From Bacteroidia bacterium (lineage in GTDB: Bacteria > Bacteroidota > Bacteroidia > Bacteroidales > JAPLDU01): a stretch of 64,000 nucleotides of DNA. The DNA is taken from NCBI GenBank assembly GCA_026391255.1, contig JAPLDU010000085.1, positions 28,891 to 92,890 on the forward strand. The letters are read 5' to 3'. The translations under genes and the position numbers were made by a program. The first letter of the stretch is position 1. The number at the start of each line of letters is the position of its first letter. Shown here piece after piece: positions 10,763-55,345 of the stretch. A model generated the notes under the pieces. The model saw only the letters and a program-made list of their open reading frames with translations, did not search any database and was not told the DNA's origin.

Positions 10763-10811
10763 TGCTATTATTGTTAAACGGACGAATCATACCCCAATAT
10801 GAATATTCAGA

Positions 10812-11275
10812 AACTGGTTTGAATTATAATTATTTCTGTTATATAATTCATATTCAACTTCTTTTGCATGCCCAAAAGAACTAAGCGAAGCGGTCTCACG
10901 AACCCCGACCTGTCGGGGTGAGTAACCAAAAGGGCACCACGAACGAGAATACAACATGCACTTTCGCACAGGCCAACGCTATCGGGTCTGTGCATGTTGT
11001 ACTCCACACCGTTCGTGGACGGCTAACGCACGGGGCTTTCATGGTCAAATTTATGTAAAAAGAATATGGGCAAAGTAATTTTTTTCAAAATTTTCATAAT
11101 AAATGAGTGCGAAGCATAAAATATAAAAATCCTTATCAACGCATTGCTGTTTGAGTGAAGTCGAGGAACGAGACGGAACGAGTTCAATTCGTTAAGTCTT
11201 TTTTGCATACTTTTTGTGACGACAAAAAGTATGAAGAATGAAATACTGAAAATCATCTGGTAAATATTCAAACAT
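10812..11275 (+). repeat. MITE-like element, family A copy 1
   Basis: A ~460 bp non-coding element whose ends are inverted repeats (left 'CTGGTTTGAATTA', right 'TAAATATTCAAACA'; consensus CTGTTTTGAATTTT / AAAATTCAAAACAG). Inside are the hairpin CCCCGACCTGTCGGGG, a long hairpin from 'CACGAACGAGAATACAACATG' (10938 onward, split) to its complement ending near 11020, and ACTTTTTGTGACGACAAAAAGT (split, ~11209-11230). Other copies: 25690-26194, 33276-33706, 37667-37977 (reversed, truncated) and 55170-55345 (partial). It fills the gap between the M28 and Ig-like genes. Confidence 0.75.
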
Positions 11276-14736: not shown

Positions 14737-14952
14737 AATTCAAATTTTTCCCGAATTAACAAACAATTTTCTTGTTGTTTGTGAAATTTGGCTTTTCTTT
14801 GCAGTGGATTGTGGAAAGATTTGATTGATTGCAACCACAGAAAAAAATGCTAAAGCAATTTTCTTTTCTGCATAGATCAAAAATCCCAACCCATCACAGT
14901 TTGCGGACTATTTCCGTATATTTTTTAGTTATTAACTGATAAAATTTTTAAT

Positions 14953-16296
14953 ATGTCTTATTTATTTACTTCAGAATCAGTTTCTGAGGGTCATCCTGAT
15001 AAGGTGGCCGACCAGATATCCGATGGTTTGCTTGATGAGTTTCTGCGTTGGGATCCGGATTCAAAAGTCGCATGTGAAACGCTGGTTACTACCGGGCTGG
15101 TGGTATGCAGCGGTGAAGTATCCACCAAGGGATATGTTGATATCCAGGAAGTAGCCAGAAGAATAATCAGGGATATCGGTTATACAAGGGCCGAATACCG
15201 GTTCGACAGCGAATCATGCGGGGTCATTTCCACCATTCATGAGCAATCGCCTGATATTAACCAGGGAGTGGTGCGGACCAGCAAGGAAGAACAGGGAGCC
15301 GGCGACCAGGGCATGATGTTCGGTTATGCATGCAATGAGATGGACAATTACATGCCTATGCCTATTGAGTTGGCTCATATCTTATTACAAGAGCTCTCCG
15401 TGATCCGTCGTGAAGGCAAAGTGATGACTTACCTCCGACCTGATGCAAAATCACAGGTCACCGTTGAATACAACGACAAGGGAAAACCGGTAAGAATTGA
15501 TACCATCGTTATTTCTGCCCAGCATGACGAATTCGTGTTGCCTAAAGGTAAAACTCCTGAAGCAGCAAAGAAAGCCGAAAAAGCCATGCAGAAGCAGATC
15601 ACCGAGGATGTTCGTAATATTCTTATTCCAAGGATAATAAAAAACAAAACATACCAATTCGACAAGAAGGTTTTTAAAGATGACTATAAACTACTGGTGA
15701 ATCCGACAGGCAAGTTTGTAATTGGCGGCCCTCATGGAGATACCGGTCTCACAGGCCGTAAGATCATTGTTGATACCTATGGCGGACGGGGCGCTCATGG
15801 TGGTGGCGCTTTCTCAGGCAAAGACTCATCAAAGGTCGACCGTTCGGCTGCTTACGCCATGCGTCATATAGCTAAGAACATGGTGGCAGCCGGTGTTGCA
15901 GAAGAAGTACTGGTGCAGGTTGCTTATGCCATTGGAATTGCCAAACCGGTCGGATTATATGTTAACACCAACCACACAGCCAAAGTTAAAGATGCCAAAG
16001 GAAAAATAATGGCCGACGGTGAAATTGCCAAAGTGATACAGGGAATTTTCGACCTTCGTCCATATTCTATAATCCAGCGTTTGGGTCTTACCAACCCGGT
16101 ATTTCTGCCAACTGCGCGTTATGGACATTTCGGTAGGGATCCTTACACGAAGGAGGTGGAAATATATTGCAAAAGCGGGGATGTTCGCAAGTGTAAAGAT
16201 AATGGCAATGAAAAATACATGAAAAAGGTGGATTTCTTTGCCTGGGAAAAGCTGGATTACGTAAACCAGATCAAAAAGGCATTTAAAATAAAATAG
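14953..16296 (+). CDS. metK: S-adenosylmethionine synthetase
   Basis: 447 residues. Makes SAM from methionine and ATP. '[14 protein letters not shown]' (~10-23) is the ATP-binding N-terminal motif, '[12 protein letters not shown]' (~116-127) the family signature, and '[19 protein letters not shown]' (~283-301) the phosphate-binding loop. It is longer than the E. coli enzyme (384) because of an insert around residues 190-230 and a lysine-rich C-terminus; Bacteroidota enzymes are often longer. The upstream gap 14737-14952 is AT-rich, and I recognise no SAM riboswitch in it. Confidence 0.96.
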
Positions 16297-19140: not shown

Positions 19141-19205
19141 AAAGTCCGTAAGATGAGTTATGATCCGCCTGAGGCGGAATGAGTTATGAATTATGAGTTA
19201 TGAAC

Positions 19206-19320
19206 TTATTTCTGAAATCCTGATAGGTTCTGGCAAAAAATTCCAAAAACCAAATTCCAAAAAACAAATAATAAACAATATCAAAATTTCAAATAAAAAG
19301 AAACTATTTTGAATTTGATT
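19206..19320 (-). repeat. AT-rich fold-back repeat, family B partial copy 2
   Basis: Only the 'GGTTCTGGCAAAAAATTCC ... CAATATCAAAATTTCAAATA' half is present, in reverse orientation relative to 1884-2082. It is followed directly by the heptanucleotide array at 19319-19370. Confidence 0.6.
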
Positions 19321-19370
19321 CCTGATTCCTGATTCCTGATTCCTGACTCCTGATTCCTGATTCCTGAAAA
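19319..19370 (+). repeat. Heptanucleotide tandem array (TTCCTGA, about 7 units)
   Basis: Seven consecutive copies of a 7-bp unit (TTCCTGA / ATTCCTG), one with a C substitution (ACTCCTG), end right before the stop codon of the thioredoxin-like gene. Such an array could vary in length by slippage. Confidence 0.8.
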
Positions 19371-25628: not shown

Positions 25629-25689
25629 TTTATCTGAAATTGTCATGTAAAATTTAAATTGATTTTGTACCAAGAATCAGGAAATTAAA

Positions 25690-26194
25690 AACTGATTTGA
25701 ATTTTATTTATTTCTATTATATTATTCATATTCAACTTCTTTTGTATGCCCAAAAGAACTAAGCGAAGCGGTCTCACGAACCCCGACCTGTCGGGGTGAG
25801 TAACCAAAAAGGCACCACGAACGAGACGTTTCGACAAGCTCAACGCCCACTTCTTTTGGTAACGGCCATTGAGCCTGTCGAAATGGCATGTTGTATTCCA
25901 CACCGTTCGTGGACGTCCAACGCACAGGGCTTTCATAGTCACATTTAAGTAAAATGAACATAGGAAAAATCATTTTTTTCAAATATTTTCATAATAAATG
26001 AGTGCGAAGCATAAAATAAATAATTCCTTATCAACGAATTGCTGTTTGAGTGAAGTCGAGGATGGTGTCTGAGCTTGCCGAAGACCGAGACGGAACGAGT
26101 TCAATTCGTTAATTCTCCTTTGCTTACTTTTTGTGACGACAAAAAGTAAGAAGAAAAAAATGCAAAAAATCAACTGGAAAAAATTCAAAACAGT
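25690..26194 (+). repeat. MITE-like element, family A copy 2
   Basis: Terminal inverted repeats 'CTGATTTGAATTTT' and 'AAAATTCAAAACAG' bound ~500 bp. It carries the same internal hairpins as copy 1 plus an insert with 'TTCGACAAGCTCA' / 'TGAGCCTGTCGAA' (25831-25880), and 'GTCTGAGCTTGCCGAAGAC' near 26068. Apparent small ORFs inside follow the palindromes and are not taken as genes. Confidence 0.75.
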
Positions 26195-26311
26195 TTATTT
26201 ATCAGTGAAAATTAATATGTCCGCAATAAGTTGTTCTTATTTGATGATTTAGCGTCTCCTGGTTAAATAATTGAACAAAAAATCATAATACAGTAAATAA
26301 TTAATCAGGTA

Positions 26312-26994: not shown

Positions 26995-27196
26995 CCTAGC
27001 CTGCCGAGCCAGAACCAAACAAGAAATAACAAATCTCAAAAGACAAAAAACAAATAAATCTCAATCAACAAAATGACAAATTCAAAGTAGTTTGTTTTTT
27101 ATTTGAAATTTTGATATTGTTAATTATTTGTTTTTTGTGATTTGTTATTTGGAATTTTTTGCCAACACGCGTCAGGAATCCAGATATAAGGTACTT
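26995..27196 (+). repeat. AT-rich fold-back repeat, family B copy 3
   Basis: Begins 'CTGCCGAGCCAGAACC' and ends 'CAGATATAAGGTACT'. The arms are A-rich and T-rich respectively and nearly complementary. It occupies most of the gap upstream of the OmpA-family gene and leaves about 120 bp for its promoter. Confidence 0.75.
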
Positions 27197-27315
27197 ATTA
27201 ACCGGAACTTTGGAATACATGTTTAGGTTAAATAATTCTGATTCGTAAATGCAACTAATTTTTCAACCGGTGCATCGTTTATAATTTGTATATTTATCTT
27301 TTTGAAAAAAATAAC

Positions 27316-37666: not shown

Positions 37667-37977
37667 CTGTTTTAAATTTTTACCAGATAATTTTCAGCAT
37701 TTTTTCTTCTTACTTTTTGTCGTCACAAATAGTAAGCAAAAAAGACTTAACGTCCGCCACGGCGTTCGCCAAAGGCGTAGAACTCGTTCCGTCTCGGTCT
37801 TCGGCAAGCTCAGACACCATCCTCGACTTCACTCACACAGCAATTCGTTGATCAGGAATTTTTTATTTTATGCTTCGCACGCATTTATTTTGAAAATATT
37901 TAAAAAAATGACTTTCCCCATATTCTTTTTACAAAAATTTAACCACGAAAGCCCTGTGCGTTAGCCGTCCATGAACT
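37667..37977 (-). repeat. MITE-like element, family A copy 4, reversed and truncated
   Basis: It opens with 'CTGTTTTAAATTTTTACCAG', the right end of the element in reverse, and runs through the GACGACAAAAAGT hairpin region to 'CTGTGCGTTAGCCGTCCATG', where similarity stops midway in the long central hairpin. A detached fragment 'CTTAGCGAAGCAGTCTCACG' occurs near 38049 in the other orientation. Confidence 0.65.
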
Positions 37978-38181
37978 TTGCGATTTAGATATTAGAAGAT
38001 ATTATTATATCAAATGATCACGCGTACTTCTTAAATCTAAAATCGTTAACTTAGCGAAGCAGTCTCACGAACACCTAAAAATAAAAAAATGTTTGTGAGT
38101 TATCCTTGTTCTTAAATCAAAAAAGTATGATTTAAAGACAAACCTGATTATATTAAACTAAAATTATATTAAATCGAAATT

Positions 38182-43698: not shown

Positions 43699-44530
43699 TT
43701 GTAATTGAAGACTGGCGGGCTTTATTGTAATTCAGCCTCAGGTCATGTAATAACTCTGTTGCATTATCGGTAGCCTTGTGCATTGCAGTCATACGTGCGC
43801 CATGTTCGGCAGCATTTGAGTCAAGCAGAGCCTTGTAAAACTGGATTCTCAATGATTGAGGGATCAGTTCACGCACAATATTCTCTTTGGATGGTTCGAA
43901 TATATAATCATGTTTGAGCCTGGTTATATTATCTTTTTTCAGTTCAACAGGCAGAAATGTTTCAGTTGTGAGTAGCTGTACAGCAGCATTTTTAAACTGG
44001 TTATATACCAGCTCGATCCTGTCGTACTCACCACTCAGGAACTTTGCAGTTAATAAGTCAGCCAGTGTCACTATTTCTTCATAATCCAGTTTATCGAGGA
44101 TAGTATGGTAATCATATGTCACATCGATTTTTTTGAATCTAAGTAAATCACTTGCTTTTTTCCCGATGGTCAGGAAATCAACCCTATTATTTTTGAATAG
44201 TTCAGGGTATTTAACTGAGGCCAGACTGAGTGCTTTTCTGATGGCATTTGAATTGAAGGCTCCGCACAATCCACGGTTTGAAGTGATCAGCACTATCAGA
44301 ACCCGGTTGATCCCGCTCCTGCGTGAATAGTGATTATCATCAGGTGAATCGAGGCTTCCGGCAAGGTTGATGAGTATCTCGTGTAATTTATTGGCATAAG
44401 GACGCATCTGAAGAATAATGTCCTGAGCTTTGCGCAGCTTGGAAGCAGAAACCAGTTTCATAGCGCTGGTGATCTGTCTGGTCGAATTCACCGACGAAAT
44501 CCTGGTACGTATTTCTTTCAGATTGGCCAT
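43652..44530 (-). CDS. atpG: ATP synthase gamma subunit
   Basis: 292 residues. The central rotor shaft of F1. 'KEIRTRISSVNSTRQITSAM' at the N-terminus and 'EHGARMTAMHKATDNATELL' plus 'NKARQSSITNEILEIVGGAE' at the C-terminus form the coiled coil; 'LITSNRGLCGAFNSNAIR' is the middle signature. Last atp gene of the cluster; atpD and atpC are absent from this window. The 69-bp gap from atpA contains 7-bp repeats (GACTTAC). Confidence 0.95.
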   Translation of the reverse strand: MANLKEIRTRISSVNSTRQITSAMKLVSASKLRKAQDIILQMRPYANKLHEILINLAGSLDSPDDNHYSRRSGINRVLIVLITSNRGLCGAFNSNAIRKALSLASVKYPELFKNNRVDFLTIGKKASDLLRFKKIDVTYDYHTILDKLDYEEIVTLADLLTAKFLSGEYDRIELVYNQFKNAAVQLLTTETFLPVELKKDNITRLKHDYIFEPSKENIVRELIPQSLRIQFYKALLDSNAAEHGARMTAMHKATDNATELLHDLRLNYNKARQSSITNEILEIVGGAEAQKK

Positions 44531-44599
44531 TTGTCAAAAGAGCGTTGAATTATGAGTGATGAGTGATGACTTACGACTTACGACTTACGACTAATTTCC

Positions 44600-46180
44600 T
44601 TACACTTTATAAGTTGACGCCAGTTCAACTGCCAGTTTCTGGAGAGTATCAATAACCTGGTCAGTCAGCTGGCCCTGCCGTAATAATTCGAGAATGTCAG
44701 CATGCCGGATTTCGAGATATTCGAGGAATTTGCCTTCAAACTCCCTGATCCTGCCAACAGGCACATTCATAAGCAAACCCCTGGTACCACAGAAAATAAT
44801 AGCGATCTGCTTTTCTACAGAAAGCGGGGAATACTGATTTTGTTTAAGAATTTCCACATTTCTGGCTCCTTTACTCAATACTGCTTTTGTAGCAGCATCG
44901 AGATCAGAACCGAATTTTGCAAATGCTTCCAGTTCGCGGTATTGAGCCTGGTCAAGTTTCAGAGTGCCCGCTACTTTTTTCATTGCTTTCTGCTGGGCAT
45001 TTCCACCCACACGCGAGACTGAGATACCTACGTTGATAGCAGGGCGCACACCGGAATTGAAGAGGTTTGACTCAAGAAAAATCTGTCCATCAGTGATAGA
45101 GATCACATTGGTCGGGATATATGCCGAAACGTCACCTGCCTGGGTTTCGATGATAGGAAGTGCGGTCAGCGAGCCTCCTCCTTTTACCATTCCTTTGATT
45201 GAAGGAGGAATATCATTCATCTGGCGGGCAATCTCATCAGAGTTAATGATCTTGGCGGCTCTTTCAAGTAACCTTGAATGCAGGTAAAAGATATCGCCAG
45301 GGTAGGCTTCGCGTCCGGGCGGACGACGAAGGAGAAGTGATACTTCGCGGTAGGAGACAGCCTGTTTCGAAAGGTCGTCATAGATGCAGAGCGCCGGGCG
45401 TCCTGTATCTCGGAAAAATTCTCCGATGGCAGCACCGGCATATGGGGCATAGAACTGCAATGCTGCAGGATCTGATGCGGTGGCGCACACAACAACTGTA
45501 TAGTCCAAAGCGCCATATTTTTCAAGAGTCTTGGCTATTCCGGCCACTGTTGAGCCTTTCTGTCCGATAGCCACATATACGCAATAAACCGGGTTACCTT
45601 TTTCAAAATTTCCCCGCTGATTTATGATTGTATCGAGGGCAATAGCCGTTTTACCGGTCTGGCGGTCACCAATGAGAAGCTCGCGCTGACCCCTGCCGAT
45701 CGGTATCATGGCATCAATAGCCTTGATGCCGGTCTGTATGGGTTCGTTCACAGGCTGCCGGTAAATAACACCAGGTGCTTTCCGTTCAAAGGGCATCTCG
45801 TACAACTGTCCTGTTATTGGTCCTTTCCCGTCAATCGGATCACCGGTAGTATTGATAACACGTCCAAGAAGACCTTCACCAACATTAATATGTGCAATAT
45901 GGCTTGTGCGCCTGACGATATCGCCTTCCCTGATATCATCTGATGATCCCATCATCACAACTCCTACATTATCCTCTTCAAGGTTGAGAACAATTCCTTT
46001 CACCCCGTTTGAAAATTCAACCAGTTCATTCGACTGGACCTTTGATAAACCATAAACACGGGCAATTCCGTCACCTACCTGAAGTACAGTGCCGATTTCT
46101 TCAAATTCGGTACTGGTAGTAAGTCCTTCAATCTGCTGTTTTAAAATCTGAGATACTTCTGCAGGTTTAATGTCGTTCAT
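44600..46180 (-). CDS. atpA: ATP synthase alpha subunit
   Basis: 526 residues from the ATG at 46180 ([15 protein letters not shown]); a TTG two codons earlier is in frame but less likely. Non-catalytic nucleotide-binding subunit of F1: P-loop '[14 protein letters not shown]' (~169-182), '[20 protein letters not shown]' and the arginine finger region '[11 protein letters not shown]'. The start lies 2 nt behind the stop of a PIN-toxin gene, an insertion into the normal atpH-atpA junction. Confidence 0.96.
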
Positions 46181-46801: not shown

Positions 46802-47359
46802 TTACATTTTTTTGTCAAAAGAGGTATTTACAATTTCTTTCCTGATATGGTCCAATTTTGCCCTGACACTGGAATTATATAACAAATCTTCCACCTGAAG
46901 GATAAAGCCGCCAATCAGGCTGACGTCTGTATTACGGGTAAGTTCCACCTGTGATTTGAACAGACCTGAAGTAATATCCGTTATCCCGAGGTAAATTGCT
47001 TCGGGCATAGGAACTGCTGTGCTGAAAACAACTGTTTTAATACCCTTATCTGCCCGGTAAATATCATTAAAATTCCGGCAGATGTCAGAAAGATGCTGTT
47101 CACGTTTATTCGTAGTAACGAGGCTAAGAAAATTCAGGCTCATTTCATTGATCCTGCCATCAAAAAGGCGGTGAAGGACCTGCTTTTTCGCCAGTGGTTT
47201 AACCACAGGATTTGAGAAATATGCATGTATCTCTTCAGATTCTTTTATAACCCGGTAAATCAGGTTAATATCATTTCTTACCGGTTCAAGCAGGTTCTTC
47301 TCTTTTGCCAGTAAAAACAAAGCTTTTGCGTAACGTACAGCTATTTTGCTCTGGTTCAT
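46802..47359 (-). CDS. atpH: ATP synthase delta subunit
   Basis: 185 residues. 'SKIAVRYAKALFLLAKEKNL' is the N-terminal OSCP/delta signature and 'GGFILQVEDLLYNSSVRAKL' the C-terminal one. Links F1 to the peripheral stalk. The gap of 177 bp to atpF (47360-47536) contains heptad repeats (GAGTGAT, GTAAATC) and no gene. The normal next gene atpA is displaced by the toxin-antitoxin pair. Confidence 0.93.
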   Translation of the reverse strand: MNQSKIAVRYAKALFLLAKEKNLLEPVRNDINLIYRVIKESEEIHAYFSNPVVKPLAKKQVLHRLFDGRINEMSLNFLSLVTTNKREQHLSDICRNFNDIYRADKGIKTVVFSTAVPMPEAIYLGITDITSGLFKSQVELTRNTDVSLIGGFILQVEDLLYNSSVRAKLDHIRKEIVNTSFDKKM

Positions 47360-47536
47360 CTTTGAGTGATGAGTGATGAATTATGAGTGATGAGTTATAA
47401 GTTAATTATCATTTTATCGTAATACCTGAAAACATCTCTAATTAGTGTTAATCCATAAATTCAAATACTTCTGAATTCGTAAATCGTAAATCGTAATTCG
47501 TAAATCCTTGTTCTTAAATCAGTTTAAAGACTATCT

Positions 47537-48109: not shown

Positions 48110-48310
48110 TTGTATCTTATTTCTGAAATTTTGACGCGTTTTGCAAAAAATTCCAAAAAACAAATCACAAAAAACAAATAATAAACAATATCAAAATTTC
48201 AAATACGAAACAAACTAATTTGAATTTGTCATTTTGTTGATTGAAATTTATTTGCTATTTGTACTTTGAGATTTGAGATTTCTTGTTTGGTTCTGGCTCA
48301 TCCAGGTTTG
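48110..48310 (-). repeat. AT-rich fold-back repeat, family B copy 4 (reversed), inside the atp operon
   Basis: It occupies nearly all of the 300-bp gap between atpE and atpF. Ends 'TTGACGCGTTTTGCAAAAAA' and 'TTTGGTTCTGGCTCATCCAG' match the other copies. Being within an operon, it may cause partial termination or mark an RNA processing site, lowering downstream expression relative to atpE. Confidence 0.75.
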
Positions 48311-48331
48311 GATTGTGAGATTGAAACATGT

Positions 48332-50494: not shown

Positions 50495-50711
50495 AAGGCG
50501 CTTATTTCTGAATCTTGACGCGTTTTGACAAAAAATTCAAAAAAACAAATCACAAAAAACAAATAATAAACAATATCAAAATTTCAAATACGAAACAAAC
50601 TACTTTGATTTTTCGATATTTGAATTTGTCATTTTGTTGATTGAAATTTATTTGGTATTTGTTTTTTGAGATTTGTGATTTCTTGTTTGGTTCTGGTTCG
50701 TCCAGATTAGG
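50495..50711 (-). repeat. AT-rich fold-back repeat, family B copy 5 (reversed)
   Basis: It lies between the lipoprotein gene and mqnC, with ends 'TTGACGCGTTTTGAC' and 'TTTGGTTCTGGTTCGTCCAG'. It is very close to the copy at 48110-48310. The remainder of the 50407-50802 gap shows no gene. Confidence 0.75.
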
Positions 50712-50802
50712 AAAATGAAAATTATTTATTGTACTTACTGAATATGCCCAGGCTGATTTATCCATCCGAAGAATTAATTTTGCTGCTAAAACGGTTAAAT
50801 AA

Positions 50803-51892: not shown

Positions 51893-52215
51893 TCAGGCCT
51901 TTAGGCTGTAGGCTTTTAGGAGTGATGAGTTATGAATTATGAGTTATGAGTTGTTACCTGATGCCTATTGCCCAACCTGGACAAGCCAGAACCTGACAAT
52001 AAATCACAAATCTCAAAATACAAATTACAAATAAATTTCAATCAAAAAAAATGACAAAATCAAAGTAGTATGTTTCGTTATTTGAAATTTTGATATTGTT
52101 AATTATTTGTTTTTTGTGATTTGTTTTTTGGAATTTTTTGCCAAAACTCGTCAAGATTCCAGAAATAAGGTACTAATACGTCTTCTAATAACTTACAGCC
52201 TAATAGCCTGAACAG
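51893..52215 (+). repeat. Nested fold-backs: TAGGCT arms around family B copy 6
   Basis: The outer arms 'ACTCAGGCCTTTAGGCTGTA' (51891-51910) and 'CTTACAGCCTAATAGCCTGA' (~52190-52210) enclose heptads (GAGTTAT) and a complete family B element (51971-52178). The B element seems to have entered the loop of an older fold-back. It occupies the gap between mqnC and the PKD gene. Confidence 0.65.
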
Positions 52216-55141: not shown

Positions 55142-55169
55142 ATCTTATTTTACAAGTCATTGTTATCAA

Positions 55170-55345
55170 ATATGAATGCGAAGCATAAAATATAAAATTC
55201 CTTATCAACGAATTGCTGTTTGAGTGAAGTCGAGGATGGTGTCTGAGCTTGCCGAAGACCGAGACGGAACGAGTTCAATTCGTTAAGTCTTTTTTGCATA
55301 CTTTTTGTGACGACAAGAAAATCATCTGGTAAAATTTATACATTA
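55170..55345 (+). repeat. MITE-like element, family A copy 5, 5'-truncated
   Basis: It begins within the element at 'GAATGCGAAGCATAAAATAT' and runs to 'ATCATCTGGTAAAATTTATA'; the left half, including the long hairpin, is missing. It adjoins the fold-back at 54842-55141, which occupies the place of the missing half. 55346-55544 shows no further feature. Confidence 0.65.

Follow-up and report, generated by a model that had tools for sequence, protein, structure and literature searches.

A gene-less MITE family with IS5-type ends and a nested palindromic module in a Bacteroidia genome

We describe family A, a dispersed repeat of ~300-520 bp found (with copy 1 below as query) at at least 40 separate loci in the 4.08-Mb draft genome (161 contigs) of a Bacteroidia bacterium. 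Family A is very probably a non-autonomous MITE of the IS5 family, with an IS5-type DDE transposase acting on its 18-bp ends. Five related copies lie in the window (i.e., the whole 64,000-nt stretch of DNA that we analyzed), where the initial annotation had placed them with coordinates correct to within a few bases; a BLAST search of the window with copy 1 returned the other four at E values of 3e-140, 3e-128, 1e-69, and 6e-42. The copies and their parts are as follows.

10810..11273, + strand: family A copy 1; with module m1, a type I inner stem, and a damaged right terminal repeat
10810..10827, + strand: left terminal inverted repeat of copy 1, GAAACTGGTTTGAATTAT, with TCA directly before it
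10858..10880, + strand: small hairpin of copy 1, CTTCTTTTG-CATGCC-CAAAAGAA, directly 5' of the m1 insertion point
10881..10925, + strand: nested module m1 in copy 1 (CTAAGCGAAGCGGTCTCACGAACCCCGACCTGTCGGGGTGAGTAA), the first hairpin of the initial annotation
10937..11018, + strand: central stem of copy 1, CCACGAACG..CGTTCGTGG (9 bp) enclosing GAATACAACATGCAC..GTGCATGTTGTACTC (type I inner stem)
11207..11232, + strand: 3' hairpin of copy 1, ATACTTTTTGT-GACG-ACAAAAAGTAT
11263..11273, + strand: degenerate right terminal inverted repeat of copy 1, AATATTCAAAC
25688..26196, + strand: family A copy 2; m1 at 25759-25803, type II TTTCGACAAGCTCAA palindrome in place of the inner stem
25759..25803, + strand: nested module m1 in copy 2
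25829..25883, + strand: type II inner palindrome of copy 2, TTTCGACAAGCTCAACG..CATTGAGCCTGTCGAAA
33273..33706, + strand: family A copy 3; both ends, without m1, full 24-bp type I stem, TAA/TAA duplication
37667..37976, - strand: family A copy 4; in reverse orientation, cut short within the central stem's 3' arm
38050..38102, + strand: module m1 outside family A, in the repeat fused to copy 4
~55159-55343, + strand: family A copy 5; internal/right fragment, right end decayed

The right end of copy 1 is damaged (AATATTCAAACATAG), the outermost bases of copy 2 have drifted, and copy 3, which has a polA-type gene on one side and an RNase R-type gene on the other, carries the only intact target duplication in the window. 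Copy 4 breaks off at 37976 and is fused to another repeat carrying the solo m1. The three window copies with both ends contain no ORF of 100 aa or more. The original description of a MITE-like element with terminal inverted repeats and without a transposase gene is supported. The window also holds a second dispersed repeat family (1884-2083, 19229-19344, 27000-27199, 48139-48312, 50524-50712, and 51979-52178), with direct and inverted copies, many of them 80-97% alike; intergenic AT-rich arrays of 7/14-nt units (GATGAGTGATGAGTTATGA...) at 44530-44601, 47354-47411, 51910-51967, and 19172-19203; and a SAM-II riboswitch (14805-14863, 70.8 bits) a short way before the ORF at 14953-16296.

When family A copies are aligned together with their flanks, similarity begins and ends abruptly at GAAACTGTTTTGAATTTT and AAAATTCAAAACAGTTTC: identity is 0.375-0.39 in the flanks, ~0.83 at the left end, 0.79-0.96 in most interior blocks, and 0.68 in the central loop. 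The true ends are therefore GAAACTGTTTTGAATTTT...AAAATTCAAAACAGTTTC, 18-bp terminal repeats with TNA just outside, and they flank about two dozen family A copies on both sides; the elements measure 296-516 bp. The common ends recognized at the outset are real, and the 14 bp assigned to them form the inner part of this repeat, which reaches 4 nt further outward (GAAA.../...TTTC). Their excess extends genome-wide, with 106 + 103 matches to the end motif at up to three mismatches vs. 4 + 6 for a reversed-pattern control (209 vs. 10). Target site duplications, which the initial annotation had suggested looking for, are present as well. Among 42 pairs of terminal repeats with ends 120-620 bp apart (one of them formed by a spurious second left end in L008), 26 are bordered by exact 3-bp duplications, and every one of these is TNA (TTA 12, TAA 11, TCA 2, TGA 1); shuffled pairings (2,000 trials) averaged 12.8 exact 3-mers and never exceeded 22. 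By type, exact duplications occur in 11/24 rows of family A and in 15/18 rows of shorter elements with the same ends.

Family A copies have diverged from one another (median pairwise identity 0.86, range 0.73-0.95), and this divergence gives no sign of recent movement. No orthologous empty site was found among the genomes searched, because all of them lie outside the host's genus and family, and the single match to a paralogous empty site (L011) is weak and probably due to chance. A 37-nt core of family A has no exact match in the genome contigs searched, and family A has no match among plasmids or phages, which leaves this genome as its only known source so far. A genome from another taxonomic family of the same order (G006) contains a related right half in different surroundings; this repeat, TGACTGCGTACTGTCTGAATGAAGCCGACG..ACTTTTTGTGACGACAAAAAGT, is seen at L043, L049, and L051-L055, with m1 in its hairpin at L043, L052, and L053.

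The ends of family A also enclose at least two other gene-less element types with unrelated interiors, both among loci L071 and L076-L088.

~210-260 bp: gene-less same-ended type with CCCCTCC..GGAGGGG palindromes
~175 bp: gene-less same-ended type with CACAAAGG..CTTTGTG palindromes (CACAAAG type)

At L085, a CACAAAG repeat is interrupted by a short same-ended element, whose flanks, joined with one TAA, align without gaps to an unoccupied repeat (83% over 48 nt), providing an empty site for one nested insertion.

A transposase gene is bordered by the same ends. Three contig ends (C16, C99, and C160) share an identical 135-nt stretch consisting of a transposase C-terminus, then AAATTCAAAACAGTTTC, and then TNA. 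The 41 aa of this C-terminus match PF13586 (DDE_Tnp_1_2; E 6.5e-8) and the NCBI IS5 model NF033580 (3.1e-8), the score lying below the whole-protein cut-off of the latter because the C-terminus alone is present. The left end of the IS is found at two further contig ends (L063 and L074), which are identical to each other over their shared stretch and which align, past the repeat, to the upstream region in a relative's IS (score 72 vs. a shuffled maximum of 54). The assembly of this genome contains no full copy of the IS; its contigs break within the element, which is what a repeat with multiple identical copies would produce. Full-length copies come from two other genomes of the order. One (L131) is 899 bp long, with ends GAAGCTGTTTTGATTTC/CAATTCAAAACAGTTTC, a TAA/TAA duplication, and a transposase that scores 234.9 bits to NF033580 (cut-off 110); the second 899-bp relative (L132) has almost the same ends and is adjoined by a 192-bp element with the same ends. 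The autonomous IS that the initial annotation had envisaged is thus represented by a transposase C-terminus and an IS left end in this genome and by full-length copies in relatives. TNA is the target of the IS427, IS1031, and ISL2-like groups of IS5, and TNA is what is duplicated both here (26/42 pairs) and at L131 (TAA/TAA). Family A has the 18-bp ends in common with the IS and no clear IS subterminal sequence; because only the ends are shared, it is no simple internal-deletion derivative of the IS.

From these sequence relationships we infer that an IS5 transposase with these ends moves family A. The IS5-type DDE transposase produced from IS copies in the same genome would recognize the 18-bp repeats (GAAACTGTTTTGAATTTT) and move any DNA between such ends, presumably by cut-and-paste, into TNA, leaving a 3-bp duplication. 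The interior would be noncoding in role and tolerant of change, with palindromic modules inserting into it or replacing its stems to give a mosaic of hairpin variants, and the hairpins would contribute little to transposition itself.

The central stem consists of 9 + 15 bp and is intact in copy 3 and nearly intact in copy 1. Copy 2 carries a different hairpin, TTTCGACAAGCTCAACG..CATTGAGCCTGTCGAAA, in place of the inner 15 bp; in type II copies, this one included, TTTCGACAAGCTCAACG..CATTGAGCCTGTCGAAATG has taken the place of the inner stem's 5' arm and loop, and the old type I 3' arm is kept as an unpaired relic. The type II palindrome is present elsewhere in the genome too, and decayed family A copies may be among those places. 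The ACTTTTTGT-GACG-ACAAAAAGT hairpin occurs in copies 1-4, with one arm mutated in copy 4, and its 3' arm is lost from copy 5. The initial statement that all copies have the same internal hairpins holds for this 3' hairpin in copies 1-4, and fails for copy 2, with its different inner stem, and for copy 4, which lacks a complete stem. The CCCCGAC..GTCGGGG hairpin is found, within the window, in copies 1 and 2 only, just as first described. An attC/integron reading of the GGCTAACGC motif was dropped on inspection by eye, as the RYYYAAC core does not fit.

Hairpins of this kind could mean that selection acts on folding and that family A, dispersed between genes, represents a conserved structured RNA or a cis-regulatory element (terminator or mRNA stabilizer), which we consider very improbable. 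Copy 1, as single-stranded DNA, does fold far better than shuffles (z -4.9), the hairpin arms are among the best conserved blocks (~0.95 vs. 0.80 in the AT-rich stretch), a hairpin is retained even where the inner stem has been swapped (type I or II), and copies are located near genes. However, the flanking genes are mixed in orientation (17 co-directional, 5 divergent, and 1 convergent, from crude ORFs), family A has no Rfam match (the window's single one being the SAM-II riboswitch at 14805-14863), and its boundaries are transposon ends with target duplications, common to unrelated cargo. The central stem pairs in 98.5% of cells over 24 pairs and 14 distinct type I copies, and none of these pairs shows double, i.e., compensatory, changes. 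The covariance analysis proposed for this hairpin in the initial annotation therefore lends no support to selection on the fold: the stem is conserved as sequence, which is silent on selection for folding.

The hairpin that is present or absent between copies belongs to the ~45-bp module m1 (CTTAGCGAAGC..stem..GAGTAA; unit CTTAGCGAAGCGGTCTCACGAACCCCGAC..GTCGGGGTGAGTAA), which has a constant foot of ~20 nt (AACTWAGCGAAGCGDTCTCAY), a stem that varies freely, and GARTAA at its end. The foot has 90 matches in this genome vs. 1 in the control. Within family A, m1 occupies two different places and both orientations; further copies occur at the base of the right hairpin of family A (L094), in a different dispersed repeat, and as tandem arrays repeating every 52-54 nt (L107, C14:5900-6450; L108, C68:16440-16620) that are themselves embedded in another dispersed repeat (the window family with ATCTTAAATCTAAAATCGTTAA). 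In a genome of another taxonomic family, it sits inside a hairpin related to family A's right hairpin. Filled and empty hosts, compared by eye, place the insert between AA and AA (e.g., CGTTAA-CTTAGCG..GAGT-AATCC vs. CGTTAATCC). Sequences flanking m1 are complementary over at least 6 bp in 25% of copies vs. 5% in shuffled pairings, an excess indicating that m1 tends to lodge in or at longer palindromes.

At least 110 stretches with the m1 foot, nearly all from Bacteroidota, came up in a scan that took one genome per species, and m1-type stretches in public genomes (L151-L230) follow AACTWAGCGAAGCGDTCTCAYGA-(variable stem)-GARTAA. A slightly longer pattern is absent from 395 other genomes sampled evenly from the phylum, and the distribution of m1 in the phylum is accordingly patchy. 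Between genomes the m1 stem covaries strongly, with 41 doubly changed cells at three pairs among 37 distinct rows; none of 500 shuffles reaches 41 cells, and the signal is gone when the partner is slid. The position before the GA step, in 67 copies, is T-A in 39, C-G in 21, T-G in 6, and mismatched in 1.

The gain and loss of the first hairpin proposed in the initial annotation is modular indeed, and the best reading is that a palindromic module found phylum-wide and independent of family A has inserted. We infer that m1 is mobile. Tentatively, m1 may be an undescribed mobile palindromic unit of Bacteroidota, defined by a foot AAC|TWAGCGAAGCGDTCTCAY, a tandem G-A/A-G step, a freely varying paired stem, and a GARTAA end, that inserts between AA and AA, often at or in the hairpins that other repeats form, thereby assembling mosaic MITEs out of separate palindromes; it is a possible reading that we hold with some reserve. 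It is the sole potentially novel part of the system, and searching the literature for its sequence by letters returned nothing relevant.

Palindromes that form arrays and lodge at hairpins bring to mind REP-type activity, whereby a RAYT (Y1 transposase), and not the IS5 transposase, would have given rise to or exchanged the hairpins and made family A. The genome does hold four Y1_Tnp genes, and m1 has these very properties, down to its 52-54 nt arrays; still, we think this account very unlikely, and a RAYT origin of the whole element is disfavored by its IS5-type ends and TNA duplications. The RAYT-like gene that we examined closely (L104, 3370-3997, on C82) lies between its own, different palindromes, GCAGCGTAGCTGC, tandem copies of which also follow downstream, where the contig ends. 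For the Y1 genes on C66 and C160, the flanks inspected are without m1, and among 80 m1 loci in other genomes a RAYT relative is present at only one, at a distance of 2.3 kb. A RAYT source of m1 is likewise unsupported, and we found no transposase associated with m1. By motif (DHVH, WQ, and YI..Q..HH), the RAYT-like genes here resemble subclass 1.2, whose members are generally without typical terminal IS200 structures (PMC6006769).

Family A, as an IS5-linked element, is a new MITE family whose mechanism is ordinary and which is nearest in kind to the IS5-linked MITEs of Porphyromonas gingivalis, i.e., BrickBuilt, MITE464/PgRS, MITE239, and MITE700 (PMC4596501). These too are gene-less intergenic elements of Bacteroidota, with terminal repeats in common with IS5-family ISs (there ISPg1/3/4/9), interiors that are unrelated despite the similar ends, repeated internal units, and copy numbers (10-20) of similar order (PMC4596501). 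They differ in their ends (GAGACCTTTGCA and ACGTCAGTTCGA), in having tandem 22-41 nt repeats where family A has single palindromic modules, and in the variable length of their duplications, as against the 3-bp TNA of family A. The terminal repeats of family A are nearly identical to those of the 899-bp IS5 elements of the NF033580/DDE_Tnp_1_2 type (L131 and L132), and L131 has a TNA duplication as well; unlike these elements, family A has neither a transposase gene nor a clear IS subterminal sequence. Module m1, for its part, is like the REP elements of the GTAG and CGTC superfamilies in being a short intergenic palindrome that is sometimes clustered and often lies within longer palindromes, and in some species REPs are known to insert into palindromes (PMC3733652). 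CGTC repeats, which occur in Bacteroidetes also, are reported without a transposase of their own (PMC3733652), as is the case for m1. However, the m1 foot (AACTWAGCGAAGCG) carries neither a GTAG nor a CGTC tag, and the ~20-nt constant foot, freely varying stem, and GARTAA end set m1 apart from both superfamilies.

The genome is a clear example of a single IS5 transposase system accompanied by several types of gene-less cargo, and family A illustrates that hairpin differences among MITE copies can stem from independent palindromes that have inserted, not from decay alone. If m1 is mobile, its copies would constitute a phylum-wide set of natural insertions in which to test the rules followed by palindromes without a transposase, such as their choice of landing site and the change of their stems with preserved pairing.
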